Assembly: GCA_031315865.1 (NCBI GenBank)
Contig: JALDRJ010000002.1
Location: 372,001 to 436,000, forward strand
Origin: Nitrospirales bacterium
GTDB taxonomy: Bacteria > Nitrospirota > Nitrospiria > Nitrospirales > UBA8639
Direction: 5' to 3'
Length of the DNA stretch: 64,000 bases
Of the stretch, positions 3,335 to 9,625 are shown piece by piece. Position 1 is the first letter of the stretch, and every line of letters starts with the position of its first letter. Both the position numbers and the translations under genes were made by a program. Below the pieces are notes generated by a model that was not told where the DNA came from, ran no database searches, and saw only the letters and a program-made list of their open reading frames with translations.

Positions 3335-3766
3335 TTACTCGGGCATCGCGATCACCCCGCCTTCGAGATCCATATCAATCCCATTCAGTTCCATTTTATT
3401 CCCAACCCGCCACCATTCAGGGGTAACTTCGGACAATGTGCCTTTTGACGTATAAAACTTGGCCTGCCCAACCGTCAGCGGCTTGTTTTTTTCGGCCTTG
3501 AGTTCAATGACGACATTCTTCAGGGTCGTATCCACGATTTTCAGACCTTCCGGGTCGGTCGTGAGCTCGAAACGATCCCCTTCGTTCAAAGTCCAAACAT
3601 TTTTTTCTAGTTTAGCCACTTGCGTTCCCGTAGGCATGTACATCTCCATAGTCAGAAGTACGGATGCCTGATCTTCTCCCAGTTCAATGCGAACATGTTC
3701 GTGTCCATGCGCCGTCACGATCCCATTGGTATTTCGGAGCACATTTGAGCCGATCATAATATCCAC
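3335..3766 (-). CDS. Hypothetical protein, beta-rich
   Basis: A 143-residue soluble protein with no signal peptide, membrane segment or cysteine. Alternating hydrophobic residues and many G/N turns suggest an all-beta fold; I do not recognise a family. The ATG is preceded by GGAGAAGC (shine-dalgarno-like, minus strand), supporting the start. It lies 119 bases downstream of the YbhN-like gene that ends the phosphonate-type operon, on the same strand, so it could be the last gene of that transcript or a separate unit. No function is proposed. Confidence 0.6.
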   Translation of the reverse strand: MDIMIGSNVLRNTNGIVTAHGHEHVRIELGEDQASVLLTMEMYMPTGTQVAKLEKNVWTLNEGDRFELTTDPEGLKIVDTTLKNVVIELKAEKNKPLTVGQAKFYTSKGTLSEVTPEWWRVGNKMELNGIDMDLEGGVIAMPE

Positions 3767-3885: not shown

Positions 3886-4890
3886 TTATCTGGTCTCGGA
3901 CGGAGGGGTATCATTTTCAACAATTTCGCCGCGACCTTTCAGGAGTACCAGACAGAAAAGCCCGATGCCAATCCACAAAATTTCACGTAAACGACGGATT
4001 AACGCGAACGTAATACCTGTCACTTCGGGATAGCCATAGGCCAGCAGCAGCAAGACATAGCCGCCTTCTTGAGCGCCCAAACTACCAGGAATGAAGAAGG
4101 TGCTGCCTTTGATGAACACCGTCAACGCGGCAATGGACACCGACGTGAGGATATCAACCGGAACATCTAAAAAGTACAAGATGGCATAGACTTCTAATGT
4201 TTCCAACATCCAGGCGAGAAAAAATGTGGCCAACGCCACATAGAATGTCCGGCGATGGTGCGTATAAAAACGGCGAATGGTGGAATCCAGTTCTTCCAGT
4301 GCCGCGCGGCGTGTTTCTAAAAATGTCAACCGGATACGACACGCATTCAATACTCGAAGACATCCCATCGCCAGTCCATAACGCTGGATCAGCATGAACA
4401 AGGCCAGCCCAAACGCCAGCAATCCCACGCTCACCAGAGCAGCGAGGAGATAATGTTCAGACGCCCCGAGAATCCAAAACGCCAGCCCGATCCCCACTAA
4501 AATAAACAAGACCTGAGCAATGGTCATCGTCGTCTTAGCTGTCACGACAGAGGCCAGCCCTTCCACAAATGGCACGCCATAGGGCTTGAGGAGGTAGGCC
4601 TTGAGCGGTTCACCTCCCACGTATGCTGCCGGAGTGGTCACGTTCACGCTCTCACCGGCCATTCGAATGGCAAAGAGCTGAGCGAACCCGACCCGTCGAG
4701 CATGATCACCGAGCGTCAGCCGCCAACCCACGGCTTCAAAGCCATAGACCAGAATCATAGGGGAGAGAATAATCACGAGCGGCACAGGGCCTAGTTGAGA
4801 GGCGGTCCGGAGAATGGAGTCCGGTCCGATGTGCCAGACGATTCCAGTCAGGACAACCAGACCAAATACCAGAAAGATGAGTTTAAGCAC
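3886..4890 (-). CDS. YbhN/LPG-synthase-type membrane protein (UPF0104)
   Basis: A 334-residue integral membrane protein with about eight hydrophobic segments spread over the whole length. It resembles the membrane domain of lysylphosphatidylglycerol synthase/flippase and the hopanoid-associated HpnL group (COG0392). It lacks the soluble aminoacyl-transferase domain of MprF, so it should not aminoacylate lipids. Family members are proposed to move or present lipid-linked molecules across the inner membrane. The GTG start overlaps the end of the upstream CDP-alcohol phosphatidyltransferase gene by 8 bases, a strong sign of translational coupling. This suggests, by inference, that it handles the lipid product of that enzyme. 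Family call good, transport role unproven. Confidence 0.78.
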   Translation of the reverse strand: MLKLIFLVFGLVVLTGIVWHIGPDSILRTASQLGPVPLVIILSPMILVYGFEAVGWRLTLGDHARRVGFAQLFAIRMAGESVNVTTPAAYVGGEPLKAYLLKPYGVPFVEGLASVVTAKTTMTIAQVLFILVGIGLAFWILGASEHYLLAALVSVGLLAFGLALFMLIQRYGLAMGCLRVLNACRIRLTFLETRRAALEELDSTIRRFYTHHRRTFYVALATFFLAWMLETLEVYAILYFLDVPVDILTSVSIAALTVFIKGSTFFIPGSLGAQEGGYVLLLLAYGYPEVTGITFALIRRLREILWIGIGLFCLVLLKGRGEIVENDTPPSETR

Positions 4891-6355
4891 GAGGGAGAAG
4901 GGATTGACGGAGAACCCATCCCAATGCAGCGATAAAAACCCAGGCCCCGAACGCAGCGATCAATAAAAACCAACCCAGTATGTTGAAACATGCAAACGCG
5001 AGAATAATGACTGAAAAATCGCGATTGGTCACGTTGCTTAATAAAAACTCTATCCGTGAGCGCGTGGACTCATCAAGACGCTGCAACTCCTGAGGCCGGG
5101 AACGAAGGAAACGAGCGCGATTCACGAGCCATAACGAAACCATGTTTGCCACGACGGCACATAACCCAAGCCATAACGGCAAGCTCATGCCTTCCCACGG
5201 CCCGTGCAAATAAGCTCCTGACGCAATACCTGCAAAAATAGCCATATGCACGACGTTATCCGCCCAAATATCTAACTCCTGGCCAAACCGAGACTCCGAG
5301 AAAGTCAACCGGGCCACCTCTCCGTCACAGCAGTCAATGATAACCGACAATTGAAACAGCAATGCGCCGATGACCCCAAGTTGGTACGATCCGACCGCAA
5401 AAAACCCTGCAGCGATTAACCCCAACACCATAGAGACCATGGTAATCATGTTGGGAGTTAACCCCAATTTCAAGAAAAGCCTCGTGAAAATTCCTGAAAA
5501 TTTCCGATTGACGTATCGATCCACCAAGCCATCCATCCCGCCCTTTAACGACTGGAGCGACTGATACAGACTCCGTTCAGCAATCTGAACGCCATGGGGA
5601 CCACGAACATCACGAAATTGAGAAGAAGCTGTTGGCACAGGTTGAATGATGCCTTCGATGGCCGCCTGCTCTAACGCTAATCGTAGAGGATTGCATCCAC
5701 GAGTATGCAAAACCCCTGACACTCCAAGCAGTCGAGATGGAAGCATGACCATATCTCCAGCAGTAAAAGACGCGGTTTGCCGAATGAATTCCGTCGATTT
5801 CTTCACCCCTTCATCAGGGTGGTCAAGAAACACCACTGGAGTGTTGAGGGTTTCGGGATTCGCCTCCTCCTGGAACACAACCCCAGGATTGTCCGTATGT
5901 TGATTTTCTTTTGCCCGGCCAACGACCAAAAGGGCCCGCCCGTCAGTTCCCACCATTCGTAGGGATTGAACAAGGGATGTTGAAAAGACCGTCTGACATC
6001 CGATGATCAAACAGGAACCTTTCACTTCACCGGCTAAGGCCTCCCAGGTTTGCGGATCGGTCGGTGGAAACTCGCGAATAGGCAGCCAGCGAATCGCGGC
6101 CTGAATTCGACCATCTTCTTGGATCATCGCTCGGAGGCGTTTTTCTTCTGTCCCGGCCAACACCCAAATCTGAGAAATTCCCGCTCGCTGTAAGGTCAGG
6201 ATTGCGCGCTGAAATAACGTTAGCCCGCCGACTGTCGTTAAAGCACTCGGATCACCAACCTTCGGAGATTCTCCCAGATTAAACACCCCGGAAGAGGTCA
6301 GCAAAATGGCTGTATCAATGACACTTGTAGCCGGTTTGTTAAGTGTTCCATCCAT
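4883..6355 (-). CDS. CDP-alcohol phosphatidyltransferase with N-terminal degenerate nucleotidyltransferase domain (PntB/DIPP-synthase-like)
   Basis: A 490-residue two-domain protein. Residues about 12-245 follow the outline of a sugar-phosphate nucleotidyltransferase. The GxGxR nucleotide loop is replaced by LTSSGVFNLGES (19-30), and the usual metal-binding GD is GCQ (119-121), so this half is probably inactive. Residues about 275-490 are a membrane CDP-alcohol phosphotransferase with the full signature D341-x2-D344-G-x2-A348-R349-x8-G358-x3-D362-x3-D366. The architecture is known from inositol-phosphate (IPCT-DIPPS) enzymes. Here the separately encoded cytidylyltransferase next upstream and PhnW suggest it transfers a CMP-activated aminoethylphosphonate to a lipid alcohol; that substrate is inference. 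Other head groups (inositol, polyols) are possible. Confidence 0.85.
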   Translation of the reverse strand: MDGTLNKPATSVIDTAILLTSSGVFNLGESPKVGDPSALTTVGGLTLFQRAILTLQRAGISQIWVLAGTEEKRLRAMIQEDGRIQAAIRWLPIREFPPTDPQTWEALAGEVKGSCLIIGCQTVFSTSLVQSLRMVGTDGRALLVVGRAKENQHTDNPGVVFQEEANPETLNTPVVFLDHPDEGVKKSTEFIRQTASFTAGDMVMLPSRLLGVSGVLHTRGCNPLRLALEQAAIEGIIQPVPTASSQFRDVRGPHGVQIAERSLYQSLQSLKGGMDGLVDRYVNRKFSGIFTRLFLKLGLTPNMITMVSMVLGLIAAGFFAVGSYQLGVIGALLFQLSVIIDCCDGEVARLTFSESRFGQELDIWADNVVHMAIFAGIASGAYLHGPWEGMSLPLWLGLCAVVANMVSLWLVNRARFLRSRPQELQRLDESTRSRIEFLLSNVTNRDFSVIILAFACFNILGWFLLIAAFGAWVFIAALGWVLRQSLLPRA

Positions 6356-6417
6356 CGTTAATCGTTAACGGTATCTCATCTTTATCGTCACCGCGACGCT
6401 TCAGACCTGAAATTCAT

Positions 6418-7233
6418 TCATGATACTTCTATGGGTTGTTCCACTGAATCCTGTTCGTCATTCTTCGACTTAGACTTCGATTTAGGCTGTAGCGCAGGGA
6501 TACTGCCGACGCCCAAAATTTCAGGCAATACTTCCTGCTCGGCTCGTTGCACATCGGCGGGGAAGTCAATTTCGACCCAGGGAAGCCCTCCTATCCGTTC
6601 AAACCCGACTTGGACATTGTTAAAAAAGTCCTGGAGCCCATCTTCATACTCGCTATCCAGCCGTTCGGCCAGAATTGATCGGTGAATGGAGCCAACCAAT
6701 GTATCTTTGCAGCTTTTGCTCACCTTTAAAAAACCGACCCCCTCTCCGGCAAAATCATATGCTGGTGGTAGCTGCTTACTGAGCTTGATCACGCGATTGC
6801 CTTGAATAGCGACCATGCATTCCTCGGTTTCTTGTGTCACCGTTTCATCCACCAACAGAGCATTGGGGTAGGACGATTCGACCAGCCGTCGAAGTATAGC
6901 GGGATGATACAGAACATCGGCATCCATGATGACGACATCGTCATCGATCGCATGTCTGGCTTCCCAAAAAGAGGTAATGCTTCCTCGTGTGTACTGAGGA
7001 TTCACCACGAAATGCACCGTTCCGGGAAAATCTAACGCATCAACTGTTTGCCGGATCGTCTCTTGTTCATACCCAACGACGATCGTGACCTGCCTGATCC
7101 CCAAAGAGGTGAAATTTTCCAGATGACGGGCGAGCAACGATTTTCCCCCGATATGTATGAGGCACTTCGGCAACCCATCGGCCGCAGCCCCCAATCGTTT
7201 GCCAACACCAGCGGCTAATATAATCGCTTTCAC
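6418..7233 (-). CDS. Nucleotidyltransferase, probable phosphonate cytidylyltransferase (PntC-like)
   Basis: A 271-residue NTP-transferase-fold protein with an intact active site: AAGVGKRL (7-14), PK (22-23), and a metal-binding DAD (104-106). It is closest in style to LicC/phosphocholine cytidylyltransferase and PntC enzymes, which make CMP-activated head groups from CTP. The last about 25 residues are a lysine- and serine-rich tail (KSKSKSKND). The GTG start overlaps the stop of the PhnW gene as GTGA. In Treponema the equivalent PntC and AEP transaminase are one fused protein, so this 4-base overlap fits the same two-step route. Expected reaction: CTP + 2-aminoethylphosphonate to CMP-AEP. 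Substrate is inferred from neighbours; fold is certain. Confidence 0.82.
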   Translation of the reverse strand: MKAIILAAGVGKRLGAAADGLPKCLIHIGGKSLLARHLENFTSLGIRQVTIVVGYEQETIRQTVDALDFPGTVHFVVNPQYTRGSITSFWEARHAIDDDVVIMDADVLYHPAILRRLVESSYPNALLVDETVTQETEECMVAIQGNRVIKLSKQLPPAYDFAGEGVGFLKVSKSCKDTLVGSIHRSILAERLDSEYEDGLQDFFNNVQVGFERIGGLPWVEIDFPADVQRAEQEVLPEILGVGSIPALQPKSKSKSKNDEQDSVEQPIEVS

Positions 7234-8324
7234 GAGAGCACACTATTTTTCTGTAATATTCTCTCGAACGCTTCCAAGAACCCTGTGATGTCTTTTTCCG
7301 ATAATGCCCCAATATTCGCCACACGAAAAATTTGTGATTCCAATTGTCCCTGACCGGCATAGATCACATAGCCTTCTTGTTTCAATTGATCATGAAGCGT
7401 CGAGTAGGAGACACCGGCAGGAAGGTAAAAGGCCGTCAAGGTATTCGACTGAAATTCAGGAGAAAGGACGGCCTTGATGCCCAACGCCGCCATACGCTCA
7501 CGGATCATGGTCGCGTAGCCCAGAAAACGCGCGCATCGATTGGCAACCCCCTCTTCCAACAGCTCATCAAGGGCCTCTCGGAAAGCATAGTAAACCTGAA
7601 CCGCCGGGGTAAAGGGAATACTACCACGCTCTTGCTCTTCATAATAATTCGCCAGATTCAGGTACCAATTCCGTTTCGGATATTTCATGATGCGGTCCAT
7701 GAACCCCTTTCTGACGATCACGAAGGCCACACCGGGAAATCCCTGTATACATTTTTGAGCAGCGCTGGCTACCAGATACATGTGTGGCGTCACGATATCC
7801 AACGCTTCTCCCCCGAGTCCACTGACAGAATCCAGGAGGAAAACACGATTTTGCGCGTCCGCGATTTCCGCGATTTTTTCTGCGGGATTCATGAAGCCTA
7901 GCGTCGTTTCATGGTGAACCATGGCGACCGTATGAACTTCTTTATGCTGCCGCAATGCCAGCAAAACCTTCTCAGGATCAGGAGCCTGTCCCCAATCCAA
8001 GCGCATTTCAACGGCCCCAAGTCGTTGAGTGCCCGCCATATTCCACAGCCGCTGTCCATAGACACCATTGATAATGACCATGATCCGTTTCCCTTGCGGC
8101 AAACTGGACAGTAAGGCTGCCTCGACCGCTGCCGTCCCAGAACCGGTTAATAGGATAGCGGTATAGTCAGCTTCACTACCGGGAACAAAGGCTTGCAGTA
8201 ACTTCTGCCGTATGGCAGCCAATAGTTCGGCGCATTCTGATTCTCGATGGCAAATGTCGGGCTCTGAGAGCGCGCGTCGCACGCGCTCGGACACATTTAC
8301 AGGACCGGGATTGAGTAGAATCAT
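7230..8324 (-). CDS. phnW: 2-aminoethylphosphonate aminotransferase-like, class V
   Basis: A 364-residue fold-type I PLP enzyme of class V. The PLP lysine is K191 in SAAQKCIQGFPG, the ring-stacking/hydrogen-bonding region is HHETT (137-141), and D165 lies in LLDSVSG. The K-C-I-x-G-x-P-G pattern is typical of PhnW. PhnW interconverts phosphonoacetaldehyde plus alanine and 2-aminoethylphosphonate plus pyruvate; with a decarboxylase upstream and a cytidylyltransferase downstream the biosynthetic direction is more likely than catabolism. No PhnX/PhnA hydrolase is nearby, which argues against a degradation operon. A close alternative is another class V enzyme (serine- or alanine-glyoxylate type, or taurine-forming), so the symbol is used with moderate certainty. 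Confidence 0.82.
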   Translation of the reverse strand: MILLNPGPVNVSERVRRALSEPDICHRESECAELLAAIRQKLLQAFVPGSEADYTAILLTGSGTAAVEAALLSSLPQGKRIMVIINGVYGQRLWNMAGTQRLGAVEMRLDWGQAPDPEKVLLALRQHKEVHTVAMVHHETTLGFMNPAEKIAEIADAQNRVFLLDSVSGLGGEALDIVTPHMYLVASAAQKCIQGFPGVAFVIVRKGFMDRIMKYPKRNWYLNLANYYEEQERGSIPFTPAVQVYYAFREALDELLEEGVANRCARFLGYATMIRERMAALGIKAVLSPEFQSNTLTAFYLPAGVSYSTLHDQLKQEGYVIYAGQGQLESQIFRVANIGALSEKDITGFLEAFERILQKNSVLS

Positions 8325-8435
8325 CGTATTCCGTTCGTGATGCGTAAAACGTGAGTCGTCAAACGTCAGAATTGAAGAATCAGAAAAGCGCCCGACATTT
8401 TTCGCATGGTCATCATCACGCCTTCCTGCTTATTC

Positions 8436-9023
8436 CTACGAACCGCTCACCCTGGCTTTAAACCGACGGGTGATGTCGGCAGGCTCGATAGCCACACGAT
8501 CCGCATCTTCAATCTGTTCGTTGACTTTGATTAAAAGGAAATTCGGGCCTTCACTATCCAACATATCTTTAAACTCATACACGATATCCTCACGCTCTCT
8601 GACGCGCTCGACATTGTGATAGCCGGCCGCCTTCGCTACCTTGTCGAGACTGACGAGCCGTGAATACGTTGGTTGATTGCCCGTCGTCCCATAGACTTCA
8701 TTATCGAACACAACATGCACGAGATTTTTGGGCTTCAACGCGCCGATCGTCGCCAACGTTCCCATACTCATCAACACGTTTCCGTCTCCGTCAAAGACCA
8801 CGACGGTTTTCTCTGGCCGAGCCAGCGCCAGCCCCAACCCGATACCTGCCGCGGCTCCCATCGACCCGATCATATAAAAATTCTCGTCACGCTCCCGCAA
8901 CTTATGAGCCTCACGAGATGGAAACCCATTACAAATGATCAACGGTTGCTCGGTTATCAACTCTAACATCGCGCTCATGGCCTGGGCGCGACTCTGCATC
9001 ACCCCCTCTTCGGGACCGATCAT
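8436..9023 (-). CDS. Phosphonopyruvate/sulfopyruvate decarboxylase, beta (ThDP-binding) subunit
   Basis: A 195-residue protein equal to the C-terminal half of AepY/Ppd decarboxylases or to ComE. The ThDP/Mg signature is DGDGN (78-82) followed by N108, with EVYGTTGNQPT just after, close to the STGGQ segment of the family. Decarboxylation of 3-phosphonopyruvate gives phosphonoacetaldehyde, the substrate of PhnW. Most AepY proteins are single chains of about 370-390 residues; the split into two genes is the ComD/ComE arrangement used for sulfopyruvate in coenzyme M synthesis. Operon context favours the phosphonate, the split favours neither strongly. It lies 104 bases downstream of the alpha gene. 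Met9 is an alternative start. Confidence 0.82.
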   Translation of the reverse strand: MIGPEEGVMQSRAQAMSAMLELITEQPLIICNGFPSREAHKLRERDENFYMIGSMGAAAGIGLGLALARPEKTVVVFDGDGNVLMSMGTLATIGALKPKNLVHVVFDNEVYGTTGNQPTYSRLVSLDKVAKAAGYHNVERVREREDIVYEFKDMLDSEGPNFLLIKVNEQIEDADRVAIEPADITRRFKARVSGS

Positions 9024-9127
9024 CTCACAACCTGCCTTGGATTATTGATCGACGAGATCTATGCGTTTTTCTTCGGCTATTTTTCATGTCTCACCCCTCG
9101 AACCATTCATTCCTCACGATTCCTGTC

Positions 9128-9625
9128 TTACGGTTGCACCGTCTTGACAATGCCTTTCTTCAATAGCAAAGCCAAGGGTATTCGCTGTTCCATGAACGTC
9201 TGCGCCGTCCACCGCAAATCCTCGACAACACTCTCTTCGGATACTGTGCGATGAGGAATTTTTACCGTATCCAACAATTGCGTCATCGTTTGCCCCATGA
9301 CCAGATGCTCTGGCGCATCTTTTCCCTCAAACCCCCGCCAGGAAATCAACAAAACACAAGGAATTTGATAGATCAGATTCAATGACTCCAGAACGTTTAG
9401 AGCATTGCCCAATCCTGAGTTCTGCATCAGAACGGCTGGAATCTTCCCACCCAAATAGGCCCCGGCAGCCATGGCAACAGCTTCATCTTCCCGAACGGCA
9501 GGAGTATACAGACGCTTTTCGGTCAGATCGGCGATAATTCCACCAAGAATCGTATCTGGCACGCCTGTAAAGAAATCTAGCCCAATATCTTGCAAAGCTC
9601 TGACAAAATCATCGCTGTCGATCAT
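9128..9625 (-). CDS. Phosphonopyruvate/sulfopyruvate decarboxylase, alpha (PYR-domain) subunit
   Basis: A 165-residue protein matching the N-terminal half of AepY or ComD: GVPDTILGG (21-29), the activating glutamate region REDEAVAMAAG (45-55), QNSGLGNALN (68-77) and the WRGFEGKDAPEHLVMG block (96-111). In ThDP enzymes the PYR-domain glutamate of one subunit activates cofactor held by the PP domain of the other, so this protein should need the beta subunit encoded immediately downstream. It is the first gene of the operon; a leader with a terminator-like hairpin and an inverted repeat lies just upstream. A PEP mutase gene, normally beside it in phosphonate clusters, is absent here. Confidence 0.82.
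   Translation of the reverse strand: MIDSDDFVRALQDIGLDFFTGVPDTILGGIIADLTEKRLYTPAVREDEAVAMAAGAYLGGKIPAVLMQNSGLGNALNVLESLNLIYQIPCVLLISWRGFEGKDAPEHLVMGQTMTQLLDTVKIPHRTVSEESVVEDLRWTAQTFMEQRIPLALLLKKGIVKTVQP

Follow-up and report, generated by a model that had tools for sequence, protein, structure and literature searches.

Phosphonyl tailoring has been described in Treponema denticola and Atopobium rimae, where the pnt pathway, as set out by Rice et al. 2019 (PMC6697681), comprises Ppm, Ppd, AEPT and PntC. Here we analyse a 64,000-nucleotide stretch of DNA (the window; G000:C2:372001-436000, on contig JALDRJ010000002.1 of assembly GCA_031315865.1) from the 3.78 Mb genome of a Nitrospirales bacterium, which carries a six-gene operon encoding, in order, the alpha and beta subunits of a decarboxylase, a transaminase related to PhnW/AepZ, a PntC-like nucleotidyltransferase (NTase), a cytidine diphosphate (CDP)-alcohol phosphotransferase and an HpnL-like membrane protein. 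The six-gene set is present in nearly all Nitrospirales, often with a phosphoenolpyruvate (PEP) mutase of altered active-site loop. The six genes and a distant PEP mutase probably make a head group with a carbon–phosphorus (C–P) bond and load it onto a membrane lipid; more specifically, we think it likely that the operon builds 2-aminoethylphosphonate (AEP) and attaches it as the head group, with the mutase acting in trans, transfer to a lipid and possible flipping of the product. The original prediction, made from the window's sequence, described an operon without PEP mutase, so that either the mutase lay elsewhere or the precursor was not phosphonopyruvate. The absence holds within the window, but the genome has a mutase about 2.5 Mb away on the same contig, which bears out the first option and, with orthologues of that mutase adjoining the operon in relatives, supports the predicted AEP head group.

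The PEP mutase model search of the genome gave a single match (G000:C2:2914666-2915484), in a gene (G000:C2:2913829-2915508) whose 560-aa product joins an N-terminal PEP mutase domain to a C-terminal PF12804 domain. Its best family is TIGR02320 (276 bits, with phosphonopyruvate hydrolase at 236 and methylisocitrate lyase (PrpB) at 200), and its closest solved structure is the PEP mutase 5unc (E 7e-85). Mutases of the order were divided into class A, which resemble this gene (58–74% identity), and class B, which are 33–40% identical and score above the NCBI cut-off. All 22 class A genomes inspected have the loop EDN[VI][FY]PKRCSFY (the Cys loop), where class B has EDK.FPKTNSF, the class A changes being Lys116 to Asn and Asn122 to Cys. 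In a tree built without the lyase 1zlp and an odd mutase (L064), both of which caused long-branch artefacts when included, class A formed one clade (support 100/99) with the canonical mutases outside it.

Co-occurrence was assessed in 197 genomes of the order, with the phosphotransferase counted at E below 1e-20 and the mutase by TIGR02320. Of these genomes, 184 had the phosphotransferase and 185 a PEP mutase-family gene; both were present in 179, only one of them in 5 and 6, and neither in 7 (Fisher P = 6e-7, uncorrected for relatedness). Class A occurred in 55 genomes, class B in 124 and the two together in none (Fisher P = 2e-33, again uncorrected for relatedness). Class A replaces, and never accompanies, the canonical mutase, a genomic replacement that lends indirect support to class A being a PEP mutase. 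It is found no more than about 10 kb from the operon, in divergent orientation, in 39 of the 43 genomes of family f3 that have class A (counted by hand from coordinates; gene maps cover nine of the linked loci, L034-L039 and L060-L062), and it is unlinked in the mapped genomes of family f1, to which the window genome belongs. Across the phylum (296 genomes), the mutase and the phosphotransferase had strong matches almost exclusively within the order. Outside it, G312, from another order, has the whole operon (L070) and an unlinked class A mutase (L069), and G325, from another class, has a class B mutase whose same-strand neighbours are a fused decarboxylase (404 bits; phosphonopyruvate decarboxylase cut-off 312.5) and a CDP-alcohol phosphotransferase, the latter a weaker homologue. 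This second arrangement independently supports a partnership of mutase, decarboxylase and phosphotransferase.

Gene loss followed a similar association. No match to TIGR02320 was found in 12 of the 197 genomes, 7 of which also lacked the phosphotransferase. G072, likewise without the phosphotransferase, gave only a weak mutase match, and this to a protein of about 302 aa that stands alone and resembles a lyase. Four genomes (G085, G112, G119 and G162; 90–95% complete) have the operon, with the catalytic lysine of its transaminase kept, and no detected mutase, which genome incompleteness can explain. In six genomes no mutase could be recognised (G027, G115, G138, G141, G192 and G072; loci L092, L093, L043, L094, L095 and L096, respectively). 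They still carry both decarboxylase subunits and the transaminase, with the NTase, phosphotransferase and HpnL-like genes not beside this trio. Their open reading frames (ORFs) are intact, the thiamine pyrophosphate (TPP) motif of the decarboxylase is preserved, REDEA is found in the alpha subunit of 4 of the 5 degenerate-lineage loci, and the transaminases are 60–66% identical to that of the window. The pyridoxal phosphate (PLP) lysine, which in the window's protein lies in AAQKCIQG and aligns with that of the AEP transaminase 1m32, is replaced in all six (by D, D, D, E, G and V) and kept in all 30 intact operon loci; a transaminase fit for catalysis is thus maintained only alongside the remainder of the pathway. 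The mutase-less loci possibly encode a repurposed decarboxylase with a pseudo-transaminase partner. The trio of genus g18, at one point taken as evidence against the pathway, was dropped as such, its transaminase having lost the lysine.

Gene order, catalytic motifs, linkage and co-loss with the mutase, and a nearest predicted fold in PntC support the following scheme, whose every substrate, lipid acceptor and flippase role we infer. The mutase–NTase fusion, acting in trans, would turn PEP into phosphonopyruvate, which the split TPP decarboxylase would convert to phosphonoacetaldehyde and the PhnW/AepZ-like transaminase to AEP. The PntC-like NTase would then activate AEP with cytidine monophosphate (CMP), and the CDP-alcohol phosphotransferase would transfer the aminoethylphosphonyl group of CMP-AEP onto a hydroxyl-bearing membrane acceptor. 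This acceptor is most likely diacylglycerol, favoured because the CMP-activated partner would be the head group and not the lipid and because the operon includes a flippase-like protein; the product would be the phosphono analogue of phosphatidylethanolamine, which the HpnL-like protein may flip. A phosphonolipid is thus a plausible endpoint. Phosphatidylserine decarboxylase (Psd) is encoded in 93 of 98 genomes of the order (81 of 81 of high quality), and since it is nearly universal, an AEP lipid would be additional to phosphatidylethanolamine; the idea that it stands in for phosphatidylethanolamine for want of Psd was rejected on the same ground. That the phosphono analogue is a core lipid of nearly all Nitrospirales, made through the Cys-loop mutase lineage (and the canonical mutase in other members), is a tentative proposal, a serious possibility rather than an expectation.

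The window genome has all six ORFs where they were predicted, on the minus strand (Table 1), and the family assignments agree with the predicted ones (TIGR03301, PF12804, PF01066, PF03706/HpnL and the TPP alpha and beta subunits). This gene order, with all six genes on a single strand, is seen at 29 loci, including that of G312 in a different order of the same class, an arrangement far beyond chance. Intergenic gaps of 104, 111, −4, 62 and −8 nt indicate tight linkage among the last four genes and a looser one for the first two; of the close couplings predicted, the GTGA overlap of 4 nt between transaminase stop and NTase start and the 8-nt overlap between phosphotransferase and HpnL-like genes were both found, whereas the first two gaps are not tight.

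Table 1. Genes of the operon and the ORF that follows it, in order of transcription (window coordinates).
Feature	Position	Strand	Length and matches
Decarboxylase alpha subunit, phosphonopyruvate decarboxylase-like (TPP_enzyme_N)	9128..9625	-	165 aa; TIGR03297, TIGR03845, PF02776
Decarboxylase beta subunit, phosphonopyruvate decarboxylase-like (TPP_enzyme_C)	8436..9023	-	195 aa; TIGR03846, TIGR03297
PhnW/AepZ-like 2-aminoethylphosphonate aminotransferase	7230..8324	-	364 aa; TIGR03301, PDB 1m32
PntC-like cytidine triphosphate (CTP):phosphonate cytidylyltransferase (NTase)	6418..7233	-	271 aa, GTG start; PF12804, AlphaFold2 model
Two-domain protein: NTase-derived N domain and CDP-alcohol phosphotransferase	4883..6355	-	490 aa; PF01066
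HpnL-like multi-pass membrane protein (LPG_synthase_TM), possible lipid flippase	3886..4890	-	334 aa; PF03706, TIGR00374
Downstream ORF, operon membership uncertain	3335..3766	-	143 aa; kept 3' of the HpnL-like gene in family f1

Orthologues of the 143-aa ORF, which had no match in Pfam or NCBIfam searches, lie directly downstream of the HpnL-like gene in L004-L007, L048, L051, L053 and L074. The operon is flanked by genes for QueF (preQ1 synthase) and a DegT-family sugar aminotransferase (window:9864-11489), a position kept across family f1.

Several observations weigh against the proposed pathway. The class B mutase does not adjoin the operon in the maps viewed and in some cases comes with a fused decarboxylase of its own (L044). 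The mutase of the window genome scores under the NCBI cut-off for TIGR02320 (276 bits, and 285 for the G312 gene, against 319.55) and lacks the motif EDKXXXXXNS, diagnostic of PEP mutases according to Rice et al. 2019 (PMC6697681), reading EDNVFPKRCSFY; both points would have misled the genome search suggested with the original prediction, for a gene with EDKxxxKxNS. The transaminase (335 bits) is under the TIGR03301 cut-off of 360.8, and the beta subunit scores slightly higher as ComE (TIGR03846, 188 bits) than as Ppd (TIGR03297, 175 bits). Finally, the closest relatives of the phosphotransferase act on CDP-inositol or CDP-diacylglycerol, which leaves room for inositol or a polyol as acceptor.

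This last point bears on an unlikely alternative, in which the head group is AEP and the acceptor is not diacylglycerol but inositol, another polyol, a glycan or a hopanoid polyol. The phosphotransferase comprises an N domain (about residues 1–245) and a membrane CDP-alcohol phosphotransferase domain (about 270–490; PF01066) whose motif D..DG..AR(8)G...D...D is intact in all 31 orthologues. Its closest solved structures, AF2299 (4o6m, E 5e-22) and IPCT-DIPPS (4mnd, E 6e-16; inositol phosphate), rather than a Kennedy-type ethanolamine phosphotransferase, favour such an acceptor, and the last protein of the operon resembles HpnL, of a hopanoid-associated family, though under the cut-off (TIGR03476, 156.9 bits against 195.65). 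However, neither the operon nor its conserved neighbourhood, in the window and gene maps, contains a glycosyltransferase or inositol-phosphate synthase gene, and a flippase-like partner (PF03706, E 4e-37; TIGR00374 'flippase-like domain', 79.9 bits, above its cut-off of 43) points to a lipid. Alignment with hhalign (E 1.6e-5, probability 79%) shows the N domain to be a homologue of the NTase. It has lost GxGxR and PK, as though the first activity of an IPCT-DIPPS-like fusion had disappeared. The AlphaFold2 model obtained for the phosphotransferase was set aside for its low confidence (predicted local distance difference test (pLDDT) score 44).

The altered loop raises a second, quite improbable, alternative, namely that class A is not a PEP mutase but a C–C lyase or phosphonopyruvate hydrolase and that the operon uses another precursor. 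The Cys loop of all 22 class A genomes inspected fits this idea, a Cys after PKR or PKK being the lyase pattern (PKKCGH in the petal death protein 1zlp), and Asn122Thr has been discussed as separating phosphonopyruvate hydrolase from mutase (PMC7916636); because position 122 matters, a role for class A other than as mutase is conceivable. Against it, TIGR02320 outranks the hydrolase and lyase models, the mutase is exchanged exactly for the canonical one and is linked to the decarboxylase, transaminase and cytidylyltransferase genes, and class A keeps in alignment the equivalents of Asp58, Asp85, Asp87, Glu114, Lys120, Ser123, Arg159 and His190. Lys120 we take to be a metal- or substrate-binding residue of PEP mutase. 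The corresponding roles of the other seven are documented (PMC7916636), and fusion to an NTase domain is itself a mutase trait (PMC6697681).

Other mutase loci of these genomes differ in their surroundings. The mutase of G026 has a canonical loop and groups with 5unc, not inside class A; it belongs to another phosphonate cluster (L059, 3459-8054), in which the canonical-loop mutase–NTase fusion accompanies a HalD-like 2-oxoglutarate oxygenase (PF23169), an NTase and a UDP-sugar dehydrogenase. G096 has, in addition to class B, a second and different PEP mutase (L064, 5622-7004; EDKKGLKRNS, TIGR02320 400 bits) upstream of a 1422-aa ORF. In G074 (L045, 3372-7813), the class B mutase shares 4 nt with a 936-aa ORF that contains AMP-binding, acyl-carrier and acyltransferase domains and may be its partner on the lipid side. 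A 553-aa group II PLP decarboxylase-like gene (PF00282) is convergent with the class A mutase at L002:9088-10749 (+) and also at L052 and L063, three f1 genomes of different genera.

The stand-alone NTase (PF12804) has an intact GxGxR...PK signature and metal-binding Asp, with the motifs LAAGVGKRL, PKCL, MDADV and EYED. The top PDB matches of its AlphaFold2 model (pLDDT 84) are PntC-AEPT 6pd2/6pd1 (E 2e-19), ahead of IPCT 4jd0 (inositol-phosphate) and LicC 1jyk (phosphocholine), so that by sequence and predicted fold it is nearest to PntC. Two glutamates of T. denticola PntC, Glu104 and Glu196, are reported near the AEP amine (PMC6697681); Glu196 aligns with Glu197 of the NTase (the Glu of EYED) and Glu104 with Asp104, as in LicC. 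The NTase domains fused to mutases of both classes lack GxGxR (AAGFEK.LL, AASRGDELG; L002 and others), which makes the stand-alone NTase the likelier AEP activator. Since a preference for phosphate esters is known within this NTase family (LicC and phosphocholine; PMC6697681), and since O–P in place of C–P chemistry would need the same enzyme classes, a Kennedy-like route from 3-phosphohydroxypyruvate through phosphoethanolamine and CDP-ethanolamine to phosphatidylethanolamine can be drawn; it is very improbable, as it leaves the PEP mutase linkage and co-loss unexplained and would be redundant with the ethanolamine lipid supplied through Psd.

The alpha subunit of the decarboxylase matches TIGR03297 over its N half (131.6 bits), TIGR03845 (118.8 bits) and PF02776, with the catalytic-Glu region REDEA present in the window translation; the beta subunit matches TIGR03297 over the C half, has the TPP motif GDG..N in 32 of 32 orthologues and has as best PDB match 9iz3, a 'putative phosphonopyruvate decarboxylase beta subunit' (E 3e-29). 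TIGR03297 models a fused protein, and its cut-off of 312.5 is not reached by halves that score 132 and 175 bits separately. The best family of the transaminase, by far, is TIGR03301 (PhnW/AepZ; E 5e-100) and its best PDB match is 1m32 (E 9e-55). A sulfonate route, in which a ComDE sulfopyruvate decarboxylase leads to taurine or another sulfonate, would suit the higher TIGR03846 score of the beta subunit and the split subunits typical of ComDE, but is scarcely credible and largely refuted because ComA (PF02679) is absent from all 12 genomes tested, including the window genome, and because it leaves the cytidylyltransferase and CDP-alcohol phosphotransferase without a substrate and the PEP mutase linkage unexplained.

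If the AEP pathway is correct, an order that includes Nitrospira would carry C–P head groups by default, an unrecognised source of reduced organic phosphorus. Mutases with a Cys loop would escape surveys that require EDKXXXXXNS, and phosphonate biosynthesis may therefore be undercounted. In addition, the class A/class B exchange and the transaminases without lysine offer natural comparisons for what makes a mutase, a hydrolase or a lyase. In the open-licence papers searched, pepM and phnW of Nitrospirota appear only as metagenome matches, with phnW counted as a degradation gene (PMC10734540), and we found none that links either gene in this phylum to the present operon, a lipid or the Cys loop.

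Compared with known systems, the Nitrospirales operon combines familiar parts in a different arrangement. It shares with the pnt pathway (PMC6697681) the logic of PEP to AEP to CMP-AEP, an NTase nearest to PntC and a mutase fused to PF12804; it differs in that the decarboxylase is split, the NTase stands alone (fused to the transaminase in T. denticola), the mutase has a Cys loop and is unlinked in the window genome, and a two-domain CDP-alcohol phosphotransferase and an HpnL-like protein are added. For that transferase step the original prediction had used the name 'PntB-type transferase', which was not confirmed as an established name in the sections of PMC6697681 consulted. The mutase has the PEP mutase family (TIGR02320; 5unc, 1m1b) as its best-scoring family and PDB match and keeps the metal- and substrate-binding residues, but class A has EDN..PKRCS in place of EDK.....NS, a score under the cut-off and a separate clade. 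As in IPCT-DIPPS (4mnd), which with AF2299 (4o6m) is nearest among solved structures, an NTase-type N domain precedes the phosphotransferase domain; unlike there, this domain lacks GxGxR...PK, a separate, active-looking NTase is encoded next door, and an inositol-phosphate acceptor is not implied. The last protein is above the cut-off in the HpnL/LPG_synthase_TM group (YbhN, UPF0104; PF03706, TIGR00374) and under that of HpnL itself, and its gene belongs to a phosphonate operon, not to a hopanoid cluster. The pathway would thus be a variant of known phosphonyl tailoring. Its novel features are the lineage of Cys-loop mutases, the occurrence in nearly the whole order and the inclusion of a two-domain phosphotransferase in the operon.

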